DNA of 42,017 nt from a virus. A program made the translations under genes and the position numbers. A model generated the notes under the pieces. That model was not told where the DNA came from. It saw only the letters and a program-made list of their open reading frames with translations, and ran no database searches. Below, piece after piece: positions 4,388 to 32,761 of this stretch. Location: positions 1-42,017 of the IMG/VR virus record IMGVR_UViG_3300020453_000046, one strand, 5' to 3'. Position 1 is the stretch's first letter, and the number at the start of each line of letters is the position of its first letter.

Positions 4388-4822
4388 CTACACTAATTTA
4401 GCGTAGACCTTTGATGTTCCGTTTTTAAGAGTTTCATAAGATACTTCCATCTTTAATCCACCCTCTTTCTTATGAGATATACCATCATCATTTATATCGG
4501 AACCATCGGTATCTTTACCAAATCTTCCACCAAATTGTTTCAGTTCAACGGTTGTTTTTCCTGAGTCACCTTCTAGTACACAATCTCCACAAGAGAGACC
4601 TATTCTAGTTAGTTTTTCTTTTAATTCATCAATCGCAAATTGTGGTTTAATATATTCCCTTTCGGCAATAGAACCAACAAATGCGTTAACTCTTTTAAGG
4701 ACTGCAGGATCTTGTATATTAGCAGCACTAATTGAACCATCTTCAACTGCGTTTGAAGTATCTGATCCAACTTGTCCACCATTATAACTATGTTCTTTTA
4801 TATGTTGTTTTAAAGTTTTCAT
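4388..4822 (-). CDS. hypothetical protein
   Basis: 144 aa from the ATG at 4822 (MKTLKQHIKEHSYNGGQ). I chose this over the upstream in-frame start at 4870 because a GAGGAAAAGGA site precedes it and the longer form would overlap the upstream gene by 38 bases. Contains CGDC (a possible metal- or disulfide-forming pair), a glycine-rich GRFGKDTDGSDINDDG stretch resembling a Ca-binding loop only superficially, and a C-terminal beta-like segment. Probably a small accessory protein of the virion region. Confidence 0.65.
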   Translation of the reverse strand: MKTLKQHIKEHSYNGGQVGSDTSNAVEDGSISAANIQDPAVLKRVNAFVGSIAEREYIKPQFAIDELKEKLTRIGLSCGDCVLEGDSGKTTVELKQFGGRFGKDTDGSDINDDGISHKKEGGLKMEVSYETLKNGTSKVYAKLV

Positions 4823-4832
4823 TCCTTTTCCT

Positions 4833-5042
4833 CTATTTGTATTTGTCTGATACTTTCTTTTTACCATCACTACGAGGTATCAGTCCCTTAGCTTTTAAAT
4901 GGGTGATGTCTCCAAACCCTGCCTTGCCTGCCTTATGACGCTTCATTGCGTCAGCAGTATTAGGTGGAGTTTCTCCTAAAACATCTTCTTCAAAGTCTTC
5001 TATATCTTTTTGTTCTACAAAAGATTTAAACTTTTTTACCAT
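4833..5042 (-). CDS. small conserved-looking protein, unknown
   Basis: 69 aa with a strong AAGGGAG ribosome site; the start lies inside the end of the preceding coiled-coil gene (17 bases overlap). Acidic N-terminal half (FVEQKDIEDFEEDVLG), then a basic, glycine-rich half with TADAMKRHKAGKAGFGDI and a lysine-rich end. I recall this type of C-terminal pattern from other marine myoviruses but know no function. Confidence 0.65.
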   Translation of the reverse strand: MVKKFKSFVEQKDIEDFEEDVLGETPPNTADAMKRHKAGKAGFGDITHLKAKGLIPRSDGKKKVSDKYK

Positions 5043-6180: not shown

Positions 6181-6669
6181 CTAGAAACCTAGTTTTTTGA
6201 GTTCTTTGATAGTGTTTGCTGTTGATGTATGATGTATACCAATACCACCTCTTTGTGTGAATTGTATAGTGTTTTTAGGGTAATCGTCTATTAATATTGC
6301 AGGTTGACCTGCTACTTTTGCGTAATTCTGTTTCTGTACTCTTTTGACTAGATTGATTCTGCCAGGTGCTATGCCTAATTTAGTTCTTGCCCAATGTGAT
6401 TTACCAGGTATACAATTAGGGTCAAAACTTTCTTCTACATATGCTGATAGAATGTGAGGTTGAAATTTAGAAATAAAAGACCATAGTTGTCTTCCACCTG
6501 CCTGCCAAGGTAAAGTGTGCCAAAATTTTGGAGTGTCTTTGATTGGTTGCCACTTTTCAGTTTTACTTGCGTATGACCATTTAGATATAGACATACCTGT
6601 TGCTTTTTCAGCGGCACTTTTAAAATCACAAAGAACACCATCCATATCACAATAGATACGAGGTTTCAT
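6181..6669 (-). CDS. HAD-superfamily phosphatase / 5'-nucleotidase-like
   Basis: 162 aa. HAD motif I is YCDMDGVLCDF with the nucleophile Asp8 and acid/base Asp10. Motif II is near ILSAY, and motif III/IV is the ILIDDYPKN block near residue 127, with a lysine (KNYAKVAG region) before it. The closest type I recognise is the small 5'(3')-deoxyribonucleotidase-like group carried by many T4-like phages, which removes phosphate from nucleotides or from polynucleotide ends. It follows the 265-aa gene by 4 bases and ends a late operon that also holds a P-loop kinase, a ligase-motif protein and a nucleotidyltransferase fusion. A role in 3'-end healing is possible but not shown. Confidence 0.85.
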   Translation of the reverse strand: MKPRIYCDMDGVLCDFKSAAEKATGMSISKWSYASKTEKWQPIKDTPKFWHTLPWQAGGRQLWSFISKFQPHILSAYVEESFDPNCIPGKSHWARTKLGIAPGRINLVKRVQKQNYAKVAGQPAILIDDYPKNTIQFTQRGGIGIHHTSTANTIKELKKLGF

Positions 6670-9942: not shown

Positions 9943-10484
9943 TACCAAAAGAAATTTCCACCACCACTCATTCCTAAACTCTTTGCATATCTAGGCAAAT
10001 TACACGCCCAATAAGCAGCACTTGTTTTATCTTTTTGTTGAGCACATTTGTGCCTAGCAGCAAAAGATTTTCTTGCCTCAGGATCTTTTAACTTAACACT
10101 TAAACCAGTAGTGTCACCCCAAGTAACTTTCTTAATCTTATCTCCGTCTTTAACAAAGACATAAAACTTTTTAGGTCCACCTCTTTTAGGTTTATTAAGC
10201 GGTGGATCTTTTTCGTCTTCAGATACCTGTATAGGTACATCTAAAGGCACTTTTCTTTTTTCATACAGACCAAATTCACCAATATCTGTATTAAGTAATT
10301 CTTTATCAAAAGCAGTTAATTCAGTTAATAATCCTTCATTATATAACTCTCTTGCTTCTCTAAACAATTTGTAAAATTCTTCACTATGAACCCTATAAAT
10401 GTTCTCGGCGAACGGTATATTGTTCTCTATATGATAGTGTACCGATTTTGATATTCTATCTTTATAATCTGAAAAACTTAACAT
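9942..10484 (-). CDS. phage protein with C-terminal Cys module
   Basis: 180 aa. N-terminal helical part starting MLSFSDYKDRISKSV, acidic middle, then a C-terminal module. There GDTTGLSVKLKDPEARKSFA is followed by a histidine and two cysteines (RHKCAQQKDKTSAAYWAC) and a PRYAKSLG end. The His/Cys spacing could bind metal. Similar Cys modules occur in marine phage proteins of unknown role, here in the same operon as another Cys module at 6674-7471. TAATG overlaps at both ends. Confidence 0.65.
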   Translation of the reverse strand: MLSFSDYKDRISKSVHYHIENNIPFAENIYRVHSEEFYKLFREARELYNEGLLTELTAFDKELLNTDIGEFGLYEKRKVPLDVPIQVSEDEKDPPLNKPKRGGPKKFYVFVKDGDKIKKVTWGDTTGLSVKLKDPEARKSFAARHKCAQQKDKTSAAYWACNLPRYAKSLGMSGGGNFFW

Positions 10485-12919
10485 TACAAATTCCTTATCA
10501 TTTTAGATACAACTTCGGATAACTTTTTCTGCCATTCTTCTTTGTATCTTTCCTTATATTTATCTATTGTTTCACTTGAAGTTGCCCAATCGTTGACATC
10601 TTTTACAGAAATATCATCACTTATTGGTCTATTTACTACTTGATTTCCTGAAGTACCATCTACTGCTGGTTTGTATGAACCACCTTGATAATTAGGGTCA
10701 TATCCGTCTTGTCCAGGCGTAATTGATACAGCGTGTTGAGCATAATCGTGTCCTATATCGTATGACTCTTTAATCTTATCATAGTTCTTTTTAAACCAAG
10801 CGTGTGCTAGTGTCTTATCTCTAGTCTTAAATACTTCTTTTCCATCACCGTTTAATACACTATATACTCCGTTTGCTGATGATACATAAGGTTTTTGTTT
10901 TCTTTCAGTAACCTCTCCGTACATCTGTTTAAATTTCTTTGTATGTACACTTGGTTTTGTCTTTGCGTCTTTATCGCCAGGTGCAGGATCATTGTCATTT
11001 TTAGTAGTATCTGTCTTTTTAAAATGATCTGCTCTTTTATTCTTTGTGTCTTTTGACATATCTTTGTAATACTTTTTAGGTTGTGTTCCGTCTTTTTTCT
11101 TAACATCTTTGTCTTGTGGCAACCTATCCATATCTTCTTTAGTAGAAACTGCTGTAAAGCCGTAATCTACATCTAAATTGTGTTCTCTCACTTGTGCCTC
11201 TCTATCTGCTGGATTAGGTAAACAATCCCATATCCACGCTTTGTGTAAATTGTTGTTGTTATCTTCTAGTACAATATAATTTGTACCTTTTCTTATCACT
11301 TTTCCATCTATATCTTCTTTGACATATTTAATTTTATCTCCTATATTAAAGATCATTTCTCTAATATATAAATCTCTAATTTGATTTTGTTCAAATTCTT
11401 GTAAGGTTTTTATCGGTCTAAAGTTAGTATCGTATTCCATACTTGCTACTAATCTCATTCCTTTTCTTACATCTTTAAATAAATCATCTGCATTTCTGTA
11501 TGATGATGGTACACCTCTTTTGAAACTAGTAAAATCATCTTTACTAGCGGCATCCCTCATCTTACTTGCACTCATACCTGATACGCCTTCAGCGTCTGGA
11601 TCTCTTTCACCTGCTGATAGTACATTGATATTATCAAAGTTATAATATCCGTGCCTACTTCTTACATCATTATACTTGTTAAGTATTGTTTCAAACTCTC
11701 TAACTCTATCACTACCTACGACCATAAAGATTTCAGTATATCCTTGTCTATGTAATTTACTTGCTATATCTAAAATCATATTAGTGTTATTGATTTCAAT
11801 GTTTCTACTATATCTAGGAAACATCATTTTCATATGAGTTAGTTTTGTTCTAGGTGATAATGGATTCTTTTTAGGATCATTACTTCTACTTAAATATATT
11901 TTAAATGTATCTGCTCTGACACTTGCAACTTTATTAATTAGTTTTTCGTGTCCAGATGTTGGTGGATTAAATCTACCAAATGTAAATGCAATTGATTTTC
12001 TTCTCTTTTCATTTATACTTAAATCATCTATCTCTTTATCAGTTACCACACCATCATCTAATATCTTCTTACAATATTTGTAGAAAGTTATATAATGGTA
12101 TTTCTCTAACATCTTATAGATTACTGCTTTAGGTAATCTATTTTTAATTCCAAATTGTCTTATTTGTTCAGGCGACATATCACTATCAAATGCTTTTCTT
12201 CTATCTGCGATAACTACATCACCTATTTTTATTATGTCTTCTATACTATCTTCTATTTCTTCTAACTTATCTTTTACTTTGTCTTGTAAATTTAAAACAT
12301 CATTAGTTGTTAATCCTTTTAATTCTTTATAATCTATAATATCTCTTTTTAATTCACCTTTAATAACATCTATCTCTTGTACTTTTTTCTCAAAATCTTT
12401 TACATATAAAGAAGGATCAAATTCAAAATCTTCAGGTCTTTTTACAAATTTGTTTTTACCTATATCAAATACTGCGTCTGCCTTTTTATTCTGATCTTCG
12501 TAAGTTTGTTTATCTGTAATAAAATAATAGTTAATAGGATGTCGTGTGCCAGGTATTAGTTTACCATTTACACTATCTGGTGATTTAGCAGACAAATACT
12601 TTTGAGATAATCTTAATCTTTCTTCTTCTTGTTTTTCTTTTGGTACATCAAACAATACATTAATGTCAAGGTCAGCGTCATCTCTATATCTTCTAGTTAA
12701 GATAGAACCTATTAAAGAATAATCTAATATAGGATATTCTTTTTTAAATTCTGTAAATTGTTTCATAATCATACCTATAATTTCAGGTTTGATTTTAGGG
12801 TCTTTAGATTCTGGATTAGAGAATACACCTACAGCATAAGTCTGTCTAGGTATATCTATGACTGCCTCATCTTGTTGTTTATCTTTTAGATGTTTAAATA
12901 TGTAATCTTTAAATCTCAT
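10484..12919 (-). CDS. two-domain nucleotidyltransferase fusion (Pol-beta-type plus NMNAT/cytidylyltransferase-type)
   Basis: 811 aa. Residues about 60-90 carry a minimal Pol-beta nucleotidyltransferase signature: GS at 71-72, then RRYRDDADLDINV, with the DxD pair at 83/85. Residues about 308-460 carry a HIGH-superfamily adenylyl/cytidylyltransferase domain: GRFNPPTSGHEKLI (315-328, the TxGH equivalent), VVGSDR (about 401-406) and SGMSASKMR (447-455, the ISxTxxR equivalent). The C-terminal third is charged, with a DGTQPKKYYKDMSKDTK segment (about 620) and tandem basic stretches. Both catalytic signatures look intact. NMNAT-type enzymes move AMP or CMP onto a phosphate acceptor; Pol-beta types add nucleotides to RNA, DNA, proteins or antibiotics. 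Substrate unknown. Coupled by ATGA to the upstream kinase gene. Confidence 0.85.
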   Translation of the reverse strand: MRFKDYIFKHLKDKQQDEAVIDIPRQTYAVGVFSNPESKDPKIKPEIIGMIMKQFTEFKKEYPILDYSLIGSILTRRYRDDADLDINVLFDVPKEKQEEERLRLSQKYLSAKSPDSVNGKLIPGTRHPINYYFITDKQTYEDQNKKADAVFDIGKNKFVKRPEDFEFDPSLYVKDFEKKVQEIDVIKGELKRDIIDYKELKGLTTNDVLNLQDKVKDKLEEIEDSIEDIIKIGDVVIADRRKAFDSDMSPEQIRQFGIKNRLPKAVIYKMLEKYHYITFYKYCKKILDDGVVTDKEIDDLSINEKRRKSIAFTFGRFNPPTSGHEKLINKVASVRADTFKIYLSRSNDPKKNPLSPRTKLTHMKMMFPRYSRNIEINNTNMILDIASKLHRQGYTEIFMVVGSDRVREFETILNKYNDVRSRHGYYNFDNINVLSAGERDPDAEGVSGMSASKMRDAASKDDFTSFKRGVPSSYRNADDLFKDVRKGMRLVASMEYDTNFRPIKTLQEFEQNQIRDLYIREMIFNIGDKIKYVKEDIDGKVIRKGTNYIVLEDNNNNLHKAWIWDCLPNPADREAQVREHNLDVDYGFTAVSTKEDMDRLPQDKDVKKKDGTQPKKYYKDMSKDTKNKRADHFKKTDTTKNDNDPAPGDKDAKTKPSVHTKKFKQMYGEVTERKQKPYVSSANGVYSVLNGDGKEVFKTRDKTLAHAWFKKNYDKIKESYDIGHDYAQHAVSITPGQDGYDPNYQGGSYKPAVDGTSGNQVVNRPISDDISVKDVNDWATSSETIDKYKERYKEEWQKKLSEVVSKMIRNL

Positions 12920-13611
12920 ATTCTTTTCTTTGCCTCTAACTCTCTTTTAATCCACGACATTGCAATTTGTGTTTCTGGTTTAGTTCTCAATCTACTTCTA
13001 ATAAACCTTGAAGCAGTATTTAAAGTTTGTGTAACTAACTCTTTATCATCTTTATTGTTATCTACTATTAATAGTTTACTATGTCCAAATACTTTTTGAA
13101 ACGCACCCATATTTGCTTGAACACCTTTCCAACTTTTTTGTACTATGTATTCTGGTATTGATCTACTTCTAGTTCTATTTCTTTCTAACGCAACTTCTAA
13201 ACTTGTATTAACAAATACCATATAACAATCGTATCCAATATTTCTTAATAAATTATATTGTCTTTGTATTGAAGAATAATCTCTTGCTGTACTATCTATA
13301 ATCATACCTAGTCTGCCTTTTAAATATTGATCCATTTGTTTTCCAACAAATTCTTTTGCACCTTGTCTAATTCTATCTCTAAAATATTTTTCTTCATCTG
13401 GCATTTTTAATGATAGATTTGCCTTTCTTAAATCTCTTTCAAATTTAACATCTGAATTAACTAGTTTTAAACCTGTACCTGCAAATGCTGATTGAGTTAC
13501 AAAAGTCTTACCTGAACCAGGACCACCTGCAAGAAAAAATGCCTTGAAGATACCTGGATCGTAAACACCTTCGTTAATATAATCTCTAACTTCTTGTAAA
13601 GTTTTTTTCAT
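12916..13611 (-). CDS. P-loop kinase, zeta-toxin/polynucleotide-kinase-like
   Basis: 231 aa from the ATG at 13611, which overlaps the upstream stop by one base (TAATG). A start five codons earlier is possible but has no better site. Walker A is GGPGSGKT (29-36), followed by VNSDVKFE (acceptor-binding Asp) and IIDSTARD (Walker-B-like, about 105). A NRTRSRSIPEYIV lid with several arginines follows. This is the AAA_33/zeta-toxin-like kinase layout; T4 Pnk kinase and zeta toxins share it. No antitoxin gene is adjacent, so a nucleic-acid or small-molecule kinase is likelier than a toxin. Sits between the ligase-motif gene and the nucleotidyltransferase fusion. Confidence 0.85.
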   Translation of the reverse strand: MKKTLQEVRDYINEGVYDPGIFKAFFLAGGPGSGKTFVTQSAFAGTGLKLVNSDVKFERDLRKANLSLKMPDEEKYFRDRIRQGAKEFVGKQMDQYLKGRLGMIIDSTARDYSSIQRQYNLLRNIGYDCYMVFVNTSLEVALERNRTRSRSIPEYIVQKSWKGVQANMGAFQKVFGHSKLLIVDNNKDDKELVTQTLNTASRFIRSRLRTKPETQIAMSWIKRELEAKKRI

Positions 13612-14831
13612 TATCCTTTTACCCAATCTTTTGCAATAGTAAAGTTTGCTCTACTAAATTCTAATCTATCTACAAGTTTAACTGCACCTGCTTTTCTATC
13701 TACTGCAACAAATCCTTCTGGATTAGTTACTCTATAACCATTAGGTGTTCTAATAAAATGTCCTATTGATTGTATCTGTGATAGTTTTTGTATTAAAAAA
13801 TTCTTTGCATTTGCTAAACTCACGTGGGAGGCAATAGCAAAATATAAAGTAGTTCTATTTCTATCTATAAATCTCAAACCGTCTTTCTTTGCCTGAATAT
13901 ATTTCTCTTTACCTTTAGCAGTTTTTCTATCACTAATCTCAGCAGTTAATATCTGATCGTAATATTCTCTAAACATATCTTGTAAAGTTTTAACTTTACC
14001 CATATGACCTTGTGTGTTTCTAATATAATGATTGAAAAATGCTTTTAACCTAAACCCTACTGATAAAGGATCGTTTGATTTCATTACATTTAATAAAGGC
14101 GCTGCCTTTGATAATGAACCTTGTGCCATTCTTATTAGTCCATCAAATCTTGCTAACTCTCCAGATGTAAATGTAGATGATCCTGAAGTATCGGTATAAC
14201 CAGCACTTGCTAAATAAACTGCTGATGATCCTGACTTACCACTTATTGTACCAAACCCAGCAGTTAAAGATGACATAGTTTTGCCTGTATAGAAAGTATG
14301 AAATACTATTCCTATTCTTGCTCTCATTATTTGTCTGCCTAATTTTGATGATGTAGGTACTGCATATGTTATAGTATTAGGTGTAAAAGTAATCATCTTT
14401 TCACCATCAATAGCAGCAAGTTTTAAATCACCTTTAGTAAATAATAAATCACCTTGATAGACACCTCTAATACCTAATCTTTTTAAATCTCTTAAACAAG
14501 CAAGTAATTTATTTGCAACAGGACCAGAGTGATTTCTGCTTATGTCGCCAGGTGTATAATTGATTTTAGGTGTTTTGTTGAAGACTGATTTTGTACCGAC
14601 AAAGAATTTGCCGTTTTCAGGATTTGTGCCACAGACTATAGCAGGAGCACCGTCCCACTTAACTGACATATTAACTCTTCCGCTAGAAGAACCAGCTAGC
14701 ATATTTCTAACTGACTTTAAAAAATTTACTGCGTTTTCCCCACCTGCTGAACCACGATTAATTATATCGTCTTCTAGGTGTTCTAGGTGCGTATTCTTTT
14801 CTGTGGTAATAAAACCCTTAAAACTAAACAT
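13611..14831 (-). CDS. DUF6267-type protein with nucleic-acid ligase (covalent nucleotidyltransferase) motifs
   Basis: 406 aa; the family name is from memory. N-terminal THLEHLEDDIINRG, then KWDGAPAI with Lys58, matching ligase motif I (KxDG). GVYQGDLLF (123-131) sits where motif III is expected, and ITFTPNTITYAV (147-158) resembles motif IIIa. NPEGFVAV (370-377) matches motif IV (EGxV), and GAVKLVD (382-388) matches motif V. All five lie in the right order for DNA/RNA ligases and capping enzymes, though the III-IV gap is long and holds an inserted helical region (about 230-330). I infer an ATP-dependent nucleotidyl-transfer reaction. Ribosome site GGAGAG; late promoter at 14888 drives it. 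Confidence 0.75.
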   Translation of the reverse strand: MFSFKGFITTEKNTHLEHLEDDIINRGSAGGENAVNFLKSVRNMLAGSSSGRVNMSVKWDGAPAIVCGTNPENGKFFVGTKSVFNKTPKINYTPGDISRNHSGPVANKLLACLRDLKRLGIRGVYQGDLLFTKGDLKLAAIDGEKMITFTPNTITYAVPTSSKLGRQIMRARIGIVFHTFYTGKTMSSLTAGFGTISGKSGSSAVYLASAGYTDTSGSSTFTSGELARFDGLIRMAQGSLSKAAPLLNVMKSNDPLSVGFRLKAFFNHYIRNTQGHMGKVKTLQDMFREYYDQILTAEISDRKTAKGKEKYIQAKKDGLRFIDRNRTTLYFAIASHVSLANAKNFLIQKLSQIQSIGHFIRTPNGYRVTNPEGFVAVDRKAGAVKLVDRLEFSRANFTIAKDWVKG

Positions 14832-14887: not shown

Positions 14888-14895
14888 TATTTATA
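14888..14895 (-). promoter_or_regulatory. T4-type late promoter for the ligase-motif operon
   Basis: Exact TATAAATA on the minus strand in the 75-base gap, 57 bases before the ATG at 14831. Same distance as the late box at 6163 from its gene. Confidence 0.75.
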
Positions 14896-14906
14896 ATACT
14901 TTATCT

Positions 14907-16292
14907 CTAGTATATTTTAATAAAGAATCCGTTATTAGGATTGATTTTCTTAGCACCATTTATCATCTTATTCATAATAGTAGATAAGTCTTTTTTGTTT
15001 TTTACAAAAAAGTGCATTATTTTTAATCCTTGAATCTTCATAACCATATTTTCAGCAATACTTCTTTTAGATTTTGCAACTTCAATTAATTTTTTAAACT
15101 CTTTATAACTTATGTTTTTTTCATTTTTAACTTTTGATTCTTTAATAACGGTTTCATACATTCCATAAACTTCTTTACATTTATTTTCATCAAAATCTGA
15201 AAATGGTTTAGGTGTACCAAAATATCTTATACTATTAATTCTAGCGTCTTTATATAGACCCATAATATTATCAACCACTTTTGTAGAAACTTTTCCTAAA
15301 CGACCTCCTGTTGGTGTACCATCAGATGTAATTTCAGTTTGTGCAACACCATAACTATGAGGAAATCCTCTAACTTGCATATTGATTTGTTTTCTTGTGT
15401 CTGTATTATTAAAAGTAAATAAACCTATTTCTTTACCTTCTGAAGTTAAGTTACAATTAAATTTTGCTATTTCAATATTAAAGTTTGCTACTTTAACCGT
15501 TCCTGGTATATTATTTTTATCTACATTTGCTCTGTCTGCTGTTATCTGTTTAAGAGAAATAGGATACATAATTTTTTTCTCATAAAGTTTATATATTTTA
15601 TCGTTAAACATATTAACTAATCCTTCTGAAACATCATAAGTATCTACTATTTTTTTCAGATCGTCTGTTACTGATTTTCTTTTACTTTTATTAATTACAA
15701 AAATATCTGCTGGATTCCAGGAATCTTTTTTTGAGAGATTTGCTTTTTTTACAAATTTATCAATAGTAGATGTAAAATCTGATTTATCGGTAGCGTCGTG
15801 GATAATTTCATAGTTAGTTAAAGACCCTACAATTTTTACGACCGCTGGTTTTGTAAGTTGAAATGTGTTATACCAATCATCAAAAGCATCTGGATTTTTT
15901 TCAAATATAGGTTCTTTAGTATCTTTAGCAGTTTCAATTTTCTTTGATAAAGACATAACGGTTGCTAACTCGCCTGCGTCTGCTAATGCTTTACCTAAAA
16001 CATTCCTTGATCCACCACCCTTACCTGAAAATGGTGCTTTATCTATTTCTGTAAATGTAAAATATTTTTTACCATCTGTAAATATAGGTGCAAACTTGCC
16101 GTTAGGATCAAGTATTTTACTATACTTTTGAAAATTTGTTTGTGCTTTTTCTAACATATCAATATCTTTAGTTTTTTTAAACTTGTAGGACTTGCCGCCT
16201 TCTACTTTAATTGGCGTGCCTTTTTTAATTTTCGCTACAATAGATACGATATATTTTGATTTAGGTAAATCTTTCCTTTGAAATAATGCCAT
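14907..16292 (-). CDS. 461-aa late protein, unknown function
   Basis: Alpha/beta protein, basic. It has a GKGGGSRNVLGKALADAGEL stretch (about 90-110), a glycine loop followed by helix. SWNPADIFVINKSKR (about 191-205) has the form 'W.PAD....' that I have seen in phage proteins suspected of nuclease-like folds. Towards the C-terminus comes a glycine-containing HSYGVAQTEITSDG block. The ordering gly-loop / E / NPADI / K is reminiscent of PD-(D/E)XK-like cores, but I cannot assign the residues with confidence. It has its own promoter region (16302-16330) and an AGAGAGAGAA ribosome site. The gene stands alone between promoters. Confidence 0.7.
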   Translation of the reverse strand: MALFQRKDLPKSKYIVSIVAKIKKGTPIKVEGGKSYKFKKTKDIDMLEKAQTNFQKYSKILDPNGKFAPIFTDGKKYFTFTEIDKAPFSGKGGGSRNVLGKALADAGELATVMSLSKKIETAKDTKEPIFEKNPDAFDDWYNTFQLTKPAVVKIVGSLTNYEIIHDATDKSDFTSTIDKFVKKANLSKKDSWNPADIFVINKSKRKSVTDDLKKIVDTYDVSEGLVNMFNDKIYKLYEKKIMYPISLKQITADRANVDKNNIPGTVKVANFNIEIAKFNCNLTSEGKEIGLFTFNNTDTRKQINMQVRGFPHSYGVAQTEITSDGTPTGGRLGKVSTKVVDNIMGLYKDARINSIRYFGTPKPFSDFDENKCKEVYGMYETVIKESKVKNEKNISYKEFKKLIEVAKSKRSIAENMVMKIQGLKIMHFFVKNKKDLSTIMNKMINGAKKINPNNGFFIKIY

Positions 16293-16301
16293 AGTTCTCT
16301 C

Positions 16302-16330
16302 TCTATAACATATTTATAAAGGAGCGTCAA
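16302..16330 (-). promoter_or_regulatory. sigma70-like promoter overlapping a late box
   Basis: TTGACG at 16325-16330, 17 bases, TATAGA at 16302-16307 with TG one base upstream (extended -10). The spacer contains the exact late box TATAAATA (16311-16318). The -35 overlaps the stop codon of the preceding gene. Confidence 0.5.
16311..16318 (-). promoter_or_regulatory. T4-type late promoter box
   Basis: Exact TATAAATA on the minus strand, 19 bases before the ATG at 16292. This leaves a leader of about 12 bases that is almost entirely the AGAGAGAGAA ribosome site. Shorter spacing than the other late promoters. Confidence 0.6.
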
Positions 16331-16590: not shown

Positions 16591-17116
16591 TAGTCTCCTT
16601 TCTGTAATATGTATTAAAACTTACTACTATTCTTTCTGTACTCATATTCGTATCGTCACCTGAACCGTGTGCTAACCAACTCGGCCACATTAATAACAAT
16701 CCTGGTTCGGGTGTAATACATATATCGTCATCACATTTAACATATATGTTATTAGGATTTTGAAAATATAATTTACTACTTTTGTCATCTACTTGTAAAA
16801 ATATTATACCAGAGATAATTGAATCTGGATGCCTATGATAATCTAATTTACTATGTTCTCCTTGTACATTACACCAAGAATTACTAATTTCTAAACTAGG
16901 ATAATAAAGTTTTTCTTCTACTCTATGTTTTACTGAATGGTGTCTATCTAAAAAACCTTTTTTTGGAGTAAAAGTTGATTTTGCATTACCTACAAGAGCA
17001 GGGTGGTCTGTTAAGTCTTCTTTCTTTATATCTTTTATTAAACGATCTATAGCACCGCCTTTTAAAAAATTATATTGGGCGTGTATATTGGTTGTAAAGG
17101 CATTTAACTTTATCAT
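16568..17116 (-). CDS. 2OG-Fe(II) oxygenase-like protein (first of tandem pair)
   Basis: 182 aa. The double-stranded beta-helix core reads YHRHPDSIISGIIFLQVD, PEPGLLLMWPSWLAHGSG and ERIVVSFNTYY, which I associate with the putative 2OG-Fe(II) oxygenase family PF13759. The iron ligands are expected at the HxH block (about 110-116), the distal HGSG histidine (about 155) and the arginine of ERIVVSFN (2OG carboxylate). It starts within ATGA of its upstream paralogue and is clearly similar to it, so this is a tandem duplication. Substrate unknown. Confidence 0.85.
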   Translation of the reverse strand: MIKLNAFTTNIHAQYNFLKGGAIDRLIKDIKKEDLTDHPALVGNAKSTFTPKKGFLDRHHSVKHRVEEKLYYPSLEISNSWCNVQGEHSKLDYHRHPDSIISGIIFLQVDDKSSKLYFQNPNNIYVKCDDDICITPEPGLLLMWPSWLAHGSGDDTNMSTERIVVSFNTYYRKETNAEKTKS

Positions 17117-17631
17117 TTTTTATCCCAATAAGAATTAAATCCTATAATAATTCTTTCTTTACTTTTGTTTATTGTATTACCTGAACCGTGCATTAAAAAA
17201 CTTGGCCACATTAATAACATTCCAGGTGAAGGTTGTATTTCTGTTACTTCTCCTTGCATAGAAGTAGGATTTTGAAAGACCAACTTACTACTATTCCAAT
17301 CTACTTTTAGATATAGGATACCAGACAAAACTGAATTAGGATGATTGTGCCATTTTAATGTACTATTTTCTTTTTGTATAGTACACCAAGACTCTGCCAT
17401 TCTTTGATTTTTTAAAGGCATTTCTTTAACTATTCTTTCTTCTAAATCTTGGTGAAAATCTAAAAATTGATTTTGACTTACACCAATAGATGTTTTAGCA
17501 TTGCCTTTTATATAATCATAATCTATCAATGACTTTCTATCTATACTAGCACATATTTTATCTATTTCAGATTGATCTATAAAATCTTCTTTTAGGTAAT
17601 AGTCTATTGTAAATAATGTTTTCTTATTCAT
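17113..17631 (-). CDS. 2OG-Fe(II) oxygenase-like protein (second of tandem pair)
   Basis: 172 aa from the ATG at 17631 (MNKKTLFTIDYYLKEDF). The reading frame stays open 52 codons upstream, but that part runs antiparallel to no conserved block and overlaps the HNH gene in another frame. Core: WHNHPNSVLSGILYLKVD, PSPGMLLMWPSFLMHGSG and ERIIIGFNSYW, parallel to the downstream paralogue. Iron ligands predicted at HNH and HGSG, 2OG at the ERIIIGFN arginine. AGGAT ribosome site; 8-base overlap with the HNH gene. Confidence 0.85.
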   Translation of the reverse strand: MNKKTLFTIDYYLKEDFIDQSEIDKICASIDRKSLIDYDYIKGNAKTSIGVSQNQFLDFHQDLEERIVKEMPLKNQRMAESWCTIQKENSTLKWHNHPNSVLSGILYLKVDWNSSKLVFQNPTSMQGEVTEIQPSPGMLLMWPSFLMHGSGNTINKSKERIIIGFNSYWDKK

Positions 17632-17995
17632 ATCCTGGTAATATCGCCTCACTAGATTTATTTTTCCAATCTTGGCTTGTATGTGTTTTATCTTTATGAC
17701 AACCATAACAAAGTGTTTGTAAATTTGTAACCTGATTATTATTTTTATTGCCATCAATGTGGTCAACTTGTAGAATACTACCACCAATTACATTATCTTT
17801 TAAACCACATCTACAACAAAACTTTTTCTTGTGTCTTGTGTATTTGCCATTAGCGTAATTGTATGCTTCTTCATTATGTCTTTGACAATACTTTCCCCAT
17901 TTTTGCTTGCCTGTTTTAGGATCACGGCCTTTATTTTGTTGACCTTTTCCACATCCTACTATACAACAATTTCCTCTTATTTCACTAACTGGCAT
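17624..17995 (-). CDS. HNH endonuclease
   Basis: 123 aa. An N-terminal zinc-finger-like part (NCCIVGCGKGQ ... YCQRH) and a CCRCG pair precede the HNH core. The core is VDHIDGNKNNNQVTNLQTLC (about 77-96), with DH as the catalytic pair and N for the middle residue, and CYGCHKDKTH closing the finger. Free-standing HNH enzymes in T4-like phages are usually homing endonucleases or packaging/nicking enzymes. It lies 2 bases after the gp41 helicase gene, in a typical homing position, with no ribosome site evident. No intron or intein visible in gp41. Confidence 0.9.
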   Translation of the reverse strand: MPVSEIRGNCCIVGCGKGQQNKGRDPKTGKQKWGKYCQRHNEEAYNYANGKYTRHKKKFCCRCGLKDNVIGGSILQVDHIDGNKNNNQVTNLQTLCYGCHKDKTHTSQDWKNKSSEAILPGYE

Positions 17996-21693: not shown

Positions 21694-21698
21694 AATAT

Positions 21699-22961
21699 TT
21701 ATTCAAAGAAACTATCTAAAGTACCTTTTCTTGCTGTGCTAAATAAATCAAAATTTTTATCTTTAGAAAAACACCAAACATTTTCTATAAATGTTTTATT
21801 CATAAACTCTTGCTTATCTTTTTCTGTTTCAAATAATTTATCTGATTTAGGTCTTTGCATTATTCTCATACCTATTTGTCCTATAAAATTATCTTTTAAC
21901 ATATCAACAACTTCATCACAACTTCTATATCTTTTACCTTTGACTTGTGGATCCATAATATTAATTATAGTATGTTTTGATCTTTCAAAACATTTTTTAG
22001 ATACAGGTAAAAAGAAATCATCACGCCACTTCTCGTACTCGTTGAATTTAAACCACGATTGATTTTCTTCTTTCTCACCACCTTTATTATATTCTTCAGT
22101 AGAAAAATATGGTGGACTTGTAAATGAACAATCAATATCTTTTATTTCATCCCAAGGTAAATCTTCAGCACCACAATTATATATCTTAACCTTTTTAGGT
22201 TTAGTTAAGAAACTATTATATACTTCTATCTGTTTCATATATTGTTTGTAAGTATTAGGGTTAGGATCACATCCTATATACTCCTCAGCGTCCGAGGCAA
22301 AGAAGCCAGCAAGTCTATCTCCCCATCCACAACTTGTGTCTAAAACTCTTTTTGCATTGGTTAATTGGTAAATTGTTTTAGCAACATTAGGTTTAAATTG
22401 AGTTGCAATATATGTGCCTAATCTAAATGCACTTAAATAACTTGCTTCAGATAATTCGCCACCTCTTAATTCTTCTTTACCTTCAACCATAACCTTTTTC
22501 ATATTGTTAATACCTCGCCATATAGGACCTAGACAACGCCATATATCTTTTGCAGTACCATTGTACCATACATCTAAAGGTGATTTGAAACTATAACTAG
22601 AACAATTTAATCTTAACTCTTGGTGAAAATAATTAGATACACTATTATAAGTTGATGGTGCGTCTATGATACCTAGACCATAATCTTTATAATTATATTT
22701 GTAGTCATCATATTTCTCCTTAACATTATTGTCATTAAGTTTACAATATTGTGTAGTGTCTTGTTTCTGTAAATCGTAAAATGAAGTTCTTACATCATCT
22801 AAAGTTATTTTCTTTAGAGGAAATTTAGGTCTATTCTTCTCAATGTATTCTGCTAAGTCTAATCTAAATTGTTCTTTGCCAATTTCATTTGTCATTCTCT
22901 CAAAAGAGAGTTGATCCATAATAGGCAATCCGTTTTCGTTAGCGTAATTACTTAATGTCAT
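21699..22961 (-). CDS. SPPY-type DNA amino-methyltransferase
   Basis: 420 aa from the ATG at 22961 (a TTG two codons earlier is weaker). SAM-binding motif I is VLDTSCGWGDRLAGF (206-220), acidic YIGCDPNPNTY (228-238, motif II), and motif IV is TSPPYF (281-286), the signature of N4-cytosine/N6-adenine exocyclic-amine methyltransferases. The long helical N-terminal region (about 1-200) is probably the target-recognition part. No restriction enzyme is adjacent, so it is orphan; anti-restriction or regulation of its own genome is likely. A paralogue lies at 37351-38433. Confidence 0.88.
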   Translation of the reverse strand: MTLSNYANENGLPIMDQLSFERMTNEIGKEQFRLDLAEYIEKNRPKFPLKKITLDDVRTSFYDLQKQDTTQYCKLNDNNVKEKYDDYKYNYKDYGLGIIDAPSTYNSVSNYFHQELRLNCSSYSFKSPLDVWYNGTAKDIWRCLGPIWRGINNMKKVMVEGKEELRGGELSEASYLSAFRLGTYIATQFKPNVAKTIYQLTNAKRVLDTSCGWGDRLAGFFASDAEEYIGCDPNPNTYKQYMKQIEVYNSFLTKPKKVKIYNCGAEDLPWDEIKDIDCSFTSPPYFSTEEYNKGGEKEENQSWFKFNEYEKWRDDFFLPVSKKCFERSKHTIINIMDPQVKGKRYRSCDEVVDMLKDNFIGQIGMRIMQRPKSDKLFETEKDKQEFMNKTFIENVWCFSKDKNFDLFSTARKGTLDSFFE

Positions 22962-32615: not shown

Positions 32616-32647
32616 TATTTATATAATCATTATTATATAAATGTCAA
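32616..32647 (-). promoter_or_regulatory. overlapping early and late promoters of hsp20
   Basis: TTGACA at 32642-32647, an 18-base spacer and TATAAA at 32618-32623 form a sigma70-like promoter. The exact late box TATAAATA occupies 32616-32623, so the -10 and the late box are the same bases. 61 bases before the hsp20 ATG. Confidence 0.7.
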
Positions 32648-32753: not shown

Positions 32754-32761
32754 TATTTATA
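32754..32761 (-). promoter_or_regulatory. T4-type late promoter box upstream of the hsp20 leader
   Basis: Exact TATAAATA on the minus strand, 18 bases after the S21 stop and about 200 bases before the hsp20 ATG. A transcript from here would contain all the folded elements at 32592-32713. Confidence 0.6.

Follow-up and report, generated by a model that had tools for sequence, protein, structure and literature searches.

Results

The DUF6267 gene and its family

The stretch of DNA analysed here (the window) comprises the 42,017 nucleotides of the IMG/VR virus record IMGVR_UViG_3300020453_000046. The genes and features that concern us are collected in Table 1. A single, complete open reading frame is read on the minus strand from an ATG at 14831 to 13611 with no internal stop; on the plus strand the same interval has no open frame, with stops throughout. 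The product belongs, as the original prediction had proposed from the letters of the DNA, to Pfam family PF19782 (DUF6267), which it matches over residues 13-401 with E = 1.8e-121, and it also matches phrog_455 of the PHROGs collection, annotated as of unknown function. Annotated phage records with a homologue number 471, nearly all of T4-like cyanophages, the remaining carriers being relatives on Pelagibacter, Methylophilales and Stenotrophomonas. Since the records with DUF6267 (371 Synechococcus and 61 Cyanophage) almost equal in number those with UvsX (375 and 61), the gene is close to a core gene in T4-like cyanophages. Another 35 matches lie in cellular genome assemblies, chiefly metagenome bins, and are probably phage contigs. 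A literature search retrieved no paper that deals with DUF6267 by name.

Table 1. Features of the DUF6267 locus, in window coordinates.
Feature	Position	Strand	Basis
811-aa protein: pol-beta-type nucleotidyltransferase and NMNAT/cytidylyltransferase-like domains	10484..12919	minus	profile matches; conserved downstream
P-loop kinase, PNK / zeta-toxin / PSTK-like; likely start ATG 13611	12916..13626	minus	profile matches; recurrent downstream
DUF6267 protein, 406 aa, predicted covalent-nucleotidyltransferase (RNA-ligase-like) fold	13611..14831	minus	ORF, Pfam, AlphaFold2 model, structural alignment
Motif V, K385-L-V-D-R389	13665..13679	minus	K385, R389 invariant; 13 residues past E372
Motif IV, E372-G373	13713..13718	minus	invariant
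Helical insertion, residues 223-351, between motifs IIIa and IV	13779..14165	minus	length variable across DUF6267
Probable motif IIIa, H178-T-F-Y181	14289..14300	minus	H178, T179, Y181 invariant; end of strand 173-182
P151-N-T153, family-specific conserved element (motif IIIa of the original prediction)	14373..14381	minus	invariant in 82-row alignment
Motif III, Q126-G-D128	14448..14456	minus	Q126, D128 invariant, within core strand
Motif Ia, G79-T-K81-S	14586..14597	minus	K81 invariant; 23 residues past K58
Motif I, K58-W-D-G61, K58 the predicted adenylylated lysine	14649..14660	minus	K58, D60, G61 invariant; K58 terminates first core strand
CTS-like peptide MFSFKGFITTE; F4, F7, I8 fit, Glu at 11 not 10	14799..14831	minus	T4 CTS rules (PMC9026906)
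TATAAATA, T4-type late-promoter-like element	14888..14895	minus	57 nt upstream of DUF6267 ATG
461-aa protein, homologue of S-SCSM1_90 (annotated virion protein)	14907..16292	minus	homology

Conserved motifs

The original prediction read the protein as carrying, in order, the motifs of nucleic-acid ligases. We have assessed this in an alignment of 82 diverse IMG/VR homologues, with 30-89% identity to the window protein, in which 33 columns are invariant. These include K58, D60, G61, K81, Q126, D128, P151, N152, T153, Y156, H178, T179, Y181, E372, G373, V375, K385 and R389. The residues on which the prediction chiefly relied, Lys58 in KWDG, Glu372 in PEGFVAV and Lys385 in GAVKLVD, had been numbered correctly, and none of the three varies among the homologues. 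All six of the residues K58, D60, G61, E372, G373 and K385 fall among the invariant columns (chance P ~2e-7, hypergeometric, a value that treats positions as independent and is indicative only).

Beyond motif I, motifs Ia, III, IIIa, IV and V are conserved in order, at K81, D128, H178-Y181, E372 and K385. The predicted list can be kept for motifs I, IV and V, and for motif III with D128 of QGD as its acidic residue, but it had missed motif Ia, which appears as VGTKS or VAKKG with K81 always present. The ITFTPNTITYAV block, which had been taken for motif IIIa, has to be reassigned: the strand end HTFY fits that motif better, and ITFTPNTITYAV is an extra conserved element (P151, N152, T153, Y156). 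The spacing is near that of T4 Rnl1 from motif I to Ia (23 residues vs ~20), from I to III (70 vs 60) and from IV to V (13 in both, E227-K240 in Rnl1); motifs IIIa and IV lie ~190 residues apart because of the helical insertion. Motif V itself is unusual, reading K-L-V-D-R where T4 Rnl1 has K-I-K: K385 is its single lysine, and the second lysine of the K-x-K common to T4 Rnl1 and Rnl2 is absent.

Predicted fold and structural neighbours

The AlphaFold2 model of the window protein, built on the 82-row alignment, has a pLDDT of 86.8 and a pTM of 0.82. A short natural homologue of 298 aa (L260), folded separately, reached a pLDDT of 91.7, and both models show the core of the covalent nucleotidyltransferases. 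In the window model the first core strand terminates at K58, D128 sits within a strand, E372 comes before one and K385 is in the next. A plain Foldseek search of the PDB with the window model gave no match with E <1e-3 and was led by unrelated helical proteins, probably because of the helical insertion; with the short form, tRNA and DNA ligases lead and capping enzymes rank lower, all with E >0.05.

The top 1000 Foldseek chains for the window model were then re-aligned structurally (VIA-align), and the top 15 rows are all RNA ligases. Bearing in mind the aligner's warning that Z <8 may mean little, and that a Z of about 8 is moderate only, the scores are 7.8 for the Naegleria RNA ligase (rmsd 3.9 over 183), 7.0 for TbREL1 and 6.8 for T4 Rnl1 with the window model, and 8.5 for the Naegleria enzyme, 8.1 for T4 Rnl1 (rmsd 3.6 over 154), 7.0 for Rnl2 and 6.9 for Trl1, followed by DNA ligases, with the short form. 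Among the best 50 rows listed for the short form, with Z up to 8.5, all 50 are ligases. The fold is assigned because every structure listed comes from a single superfamily, and because the residues that make up the motifs of that superfamily are those that never vary in DUF6267. In addition, the aligned ranges of the short form stop no more than one residue out of register with motif V in four enzymes, T4 Rnl1 and Rnl2, REL1 and the Naegleria ligase; the motif V positions of the last two are established knowledge. Thus the models and the unbroken conservation of the motif residues support the ligase core that had been predicted. Two of the findings that would have spoken against it, a fold lacking that core and motif residues that vary among homologues, did not arise, and on this basis DUF6267 almost certainly has the covalent-nucleotidyltransferase fold and motifs. 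The predicted structure also favours RNA ligases over capping enzymes.

Relationship to known ligases

The kinship seen in the models is not recovered by sequence comparison. No known ligase family was matched by DUF6267 in searches of Pfam, PHROGs, NCBIfam and PADLOC, and neither phmmer against the PDB nor profile searches returned a ligase. There was no significant similarity to PF09511 and PF09414, the Rnl1 and Rnl2 families, and no Pfam match to the DNA ligases of PF01068 and PF01653. When DUF6267 was compared by hhalign with an Rnl1 alignment, the best local match fell on motifs IV-V, in register, with a score at the level of noise (8-10 of 60 column shuffles reach the same score); the score to Rnl2 is likewise noise (32-39 of 60). 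Since no sequence search ties it significantly to a ligase, DUF6267 is, as judged from sequence and models, a new divergent family of the nucleotidyltransferase superfamily, outside the Rnl1, Rnl2 and DNA-ligase families by sequence.

The best structural match (Z 7.8-8.5), the nick-sealing RNA ligase of Naegleria gruberi (PDB 5cou/6vt0), shares the nucleotidyltransferase core, but has only ~10% identity in the aligned part, a different insertion and no kinship detectable by sequence; it aligns chiefly from chain residue 143, that is, without its N-terminal part. T4 Rnl1 (gp63) has motifs I, Ia, III, IV and V in the same order, but DUF6267 differs from it in the helical insertion between IIIa and IV and in the absence of the Rnl1 C-terminal domain. 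The core is shared also with T4 Rnl2 and REL1 (Z 6-7), again with no sequence match (PF09414 silent, hhalign at noise).

An alternative to an RNA ligase is that DUF6267 is a DNA ligase for replication, recombination or packaging, which would replace the gp30 absent from cyanophages. Gp30 has been listed as 'non-cyanophage core' (PMC5349666); DUF6267 is near-universal in T4-like cyanophages, most of which have no gp30, in many loci its gene comes immediately after gp41/UvsX, and DNA ligases match the predicted fold too. Against it, RNA ligases score higher, and the protein ends 21 residues past K385, with no OB domain after motif V. We have also scanned DUF6267-bearing genomes for other ligases, with T4 as a positive control that matched both RNA-ligase families. 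None of PF01068, PF01653, PF09414 and PF09511 was found in 13 of 16 genomes. The three exceptions (DLP6, G006, G007) carry a gp30-type ligase, and G006 and G007 additionally carry T4 Rnl1/Rnl2-type RNA ligases. Because these phages keep DUF6267 beside other ligases, it appears to have a role of its own, and the notion of a simple gp30 replacement is weakened. Together with the late promoter of the window clade described below, this makes a DNA ligase an unlikely reading, if the strongest of the alternatives.

Gene neighbourhood

Upstream of the DUF6267 gene lie those for clamp, clamp loader, gp43, UvsX and gp41. The gene had been placed in the virion region; as a location this must be abandoned, as the gene lies immediately behind the replication cluster. 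The kinase encoded downstream matches AAA_33 (E 3e-15), zeta toxin (E 1.5e-10), a polynucleotide-kinase phrog (E 7e-9) and a seryl-tRNA(Sec) kinase model (E 3e-9), and could be a P-loop kinase other than a PNK. The NMNAT-like domain of the 811-aa protein matches NMNAT models with E 6e-7. The upstream 461-aa family (phrog_1462) contains a D...(I/V)S-x-K arrangement (WNPADIFVI ... YPISLK) and looks like a degenerate PD-(D/E)xK nuclease.

In a survey of 311 DUF6267 loci, the most general partner is an NMNAT-like gene. It lies downstream of DUF6267 in 73 of the 80 short-form loci, and in 51/63 S-PM2-like loci (S-PM2 itself, L084:6013-7788, and L090-L151) the two are fused in frame. The window-like loci are often truncated; among 80 of them, the kinase is downstream in 62 and pol-beta in 60. 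Phage RNA repair typically combines a kinase, a pol-beta nucleotidyltransferase and a ligase (PMC7824862), which is the reason why we prefer RNA as the substrate of DUF6267.

The NMNAT association can be interpreted differently. On this view DUF6267 might use ATP, or NAD+ made by the neighbouring or fused NMNAT, to place AMP on an acceptor other than a nucleic-acid end: a metabolite, a protein or an RNA cap. It is the NMNAT/cytidylyltransferase-like fusion or adjacency, more widespread than any other association, that speaks for such a function, along with the unusual motif V and the presence of capping enzymes among the Foldseek matches. The nearest structures are nonetheless end-joining ligases, and the PNK-like kinase and pol-beta that accompany the gene in the window clade suit end repair; we thus regard this alternative as rather improbable, slightly more so than a DNA ligase.

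Late promoter

The element TATAAATA in front of the gene is the T4 late-promoter consensus. The window contains ATAAATA 10 times vs 38.5 expected from dinucleotide shuffles, a depletion of about fourfold, and all 10 sites fall on the coding strand; a second one precedes the upstream gene, at 16311 (16311-16317). The element is present in 67/72 near homologues, mostly 60-79 nt upstream, compared to 54/2070 blocks of coding sequence, although these counts within the clade, like those for the N-terminus below, are phylogenetically non-independent, which makes the statistics weaker. It stands as an island of conservation amid diverged upstream sequence. No short form is preceded by it (0/78), and it is rare in the other DUF6267 groups. 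In the related phage HTVC008M it lies upstream of 9/27 structural vs 2/17 replication or early genes, and is not found directly upstream of the DUF6267 gene, for which reason we do not claim late expression across the family. Expression late rather than with replication, another element of the original prediction, thus finds support, for the window clade, in a conserved promoter-like element. Further ATAAATA sites at 21696-21702, 32616-32622 and 32754-32760, several of the sites being directly upstream of ORFs, provide a map of putative late promoters in the window.

A capsid-targeting-like N-terminus

In the capsid-targeting sequence (CTS) of T4, targeting depends on residues 4 and 7 and processing on residues 8 and 10, with cleavage by gp21 following L/I-x-E (PMC9026906). 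From this rule we defined a strict pattern, with aromatic residues at 4 and 7 and I/L-x-E ending at 10. Among 39 T4 genes it selects exactly IPII and IPIII, whose N-terminus is MKTYQEFIAE/A (the slash follows the Glu of I/L-x-E). It is found in 74/80 DUF6267 proteins of the DLP6-like group (for example MKTFKKFIAE/DK, MIRFKKFIAE/SK and MLRFKQYLSE/SK), and in 0/75 gp41, 0/135 short or S-PM2-like DUF6267 and 0/7245 internal methionines. Cultured phages whose DUF6267 carries the CTS include Melnitz, C48C1 and DLP6, as well as HTVC008M with a shorter variant. The NMNAT neighbours of the short clade have the strict pattern in 73/73 cases (L233-L312), and the NMNAT-like proteins at L382:8820-10049 and L380:5609-6469 begin with a CTS-like peptide. 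Other long ORFs of the same loci match in 58/515 cases, so that a CTS-like signal is common in the gene block. Within the window, an internal start in 4388-4870, a protein with no PHROG match, would also give a CTS-like beginning, MKTLKQHIKE/HSYNGG.

The N-terminus of the window clade, MFSFKGF(I/F)TxE, satisfies a relaxed pattern only (65/80; background 1%), and canonical gp21 processing is not predicted for the window protein because its Glu is at position 11 instead of 10. The CTS-like peptide sits ahead of the start of the CTS-less forms (MPNKHLEHLED, MATQNKHLEHLED), a placement that, on sequence grounds, is as expected of a removable tag, and residues 1-14 of the window model are disordered (pLDDT <50). 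Many DUF6267 proteins, both short and S-PM2-like, have neither a CTS nor a nearby late promoter. A gp21-type protease (PF03420) is encoded in all 11 related genomes tested, including T4; the window record is a 42-kb fragment.

The N-terminal pattern of IPII/IPIII and Alt, the CTS-targeted, injected head proteins of T4, thus recurs in the long DUF6267 proteins, in a weaker form in the window clade. These differ from the T4 internal proteins in that the cargo would be a ligase-fold enzyme, in the Glu at 11 of the window clade, and in that packaging is predicted from sequence. The late promoter and the T4-type CTS-like N-terminus, taken together, suggest that DUF6267 of the window clade is probably packed in the head and injected.

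Virion proteomes

NMNAT-like homologues have been detected in the virions of S-CREM2, S-SCSM1 and S-SZBM1 (PMC10665884, PMC9602691, PMC9146016), although the authors of two of these studies caution that abundant non-virion proteins may co-purify. All three proteins begin CTS-like, which may be why NMNAT-like proteins recur in virion proteomes. In S-SZBM1, the sole proteome in which the point could be checked, the DUF6267 protein (SSZBM1_141, MAKNTHLEHLED), which has no CTS, is absent from the virion list, and its CTS-bearing, NMNAT-like neighbour _140 is present; detection that tracks the CTS in this way is consistent with the idea of DUF6267 packaging. In published virion proteomes we found no detection of DUF6267, and the search turned up no proteome for a CTS-bearing form. 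Three virion candidates were considered and rejected as DUF6267: the virion-detected S-CREM2 gp160 (297 aa), by profile, and S-SCSM1_89 and S-SCSM1_90. Overall, the link to the virion contained in the original prediction fails as a matter of location, but survives as an association, through the CTS-like N-terminus and the virion-detected homologues of neighbouring genes.

Discussion

These results can be brought together in the following account, in which we have moderate confidence: DUF6267 would be an RNA-ligase-like adenylyltransferase that, in the window lineage, acts beside a PNK-like kinase and a pol-beta/NMNAT protein, is expressed late and is probably packaged in the head. Its parts are not equally secure. 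Competence in adenylyl transfer is likely, judging from the models and the conserved residues: K58 would attack the alpha-phosphate of ATP (or NAD+) to give lysyl-AMP, a chemistry in which K81, D128, E372 and K385 would assist. For end joining, most likely of RNA, the case is evenly balanced. The AMP would pass to a 5'-phosphate end, which would then be joined to a 3'-OH, with RNA, such as a cleaved tRNA, as the likeliest substrate; in the window clade the kinase and the pol-beta/NMNAT nucleotidyltransferase would work alongside. Transcription from the late promoter, packing into the head by means of the CTS-like N-terminus and injection with the genome would complete the scheme. Packaging and injection may or may not hold, to about the same degree as end joining, in the CTS-bearing lineages as the N-termini are read here, and are somewhat less probable in the window clade. 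A catalytically dead ligase fold serving as a structural or assembly factor, after the example of T4 gp63, a protein annotated both for RNA ligation and for catalysing tail-fibre attachment and one of the best structural matches, is very improbable even for a gene block near virion-detected proteins, because every core motif residue, K58 included, is invariant in the 82 homologues.

A broader and more tentative proposal is that T4-like marine phages pack and inject a ligase-type enzyme as a member of an end-repair kit (NMNAT-like, PNK-like, pol-beta), and that the forms with no capsid signal have the NMNAT fusion instead. If such a kit is injected, repair of nucleic acids could start before any phage gene is expressed, and the NMNAT fusion could even regenerate NAD+ from NMN for a ligase that depends on it. 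If the CTS is read correctly, nucleic-acid repair enzymes would be added to the few enzymes that T4-like phages inject, and a simple N-terminal pattern would be available for spotting other injected cyanophage proteins. For a family so widespread and with no assigned function, the ligase-type fold offers an activity that can be tested; most T4-like cyanophages seem to be short of an end-joining enzyme, a gap that DUF6267 might fill.

Two other observations were made in the window. An HAD-type protein, similar to 5'(3')-deoxyribonucleotidases, is encoded at 6181-6669 and could contribute the 3'-phosphatase of an end-repair set. Within 17113-17995, an HNH-like ORF with zinc-finger cysteines (17624-17995) overlaps, in another frame, the start of a 2OG-Fe(II) oxygenase ORF.
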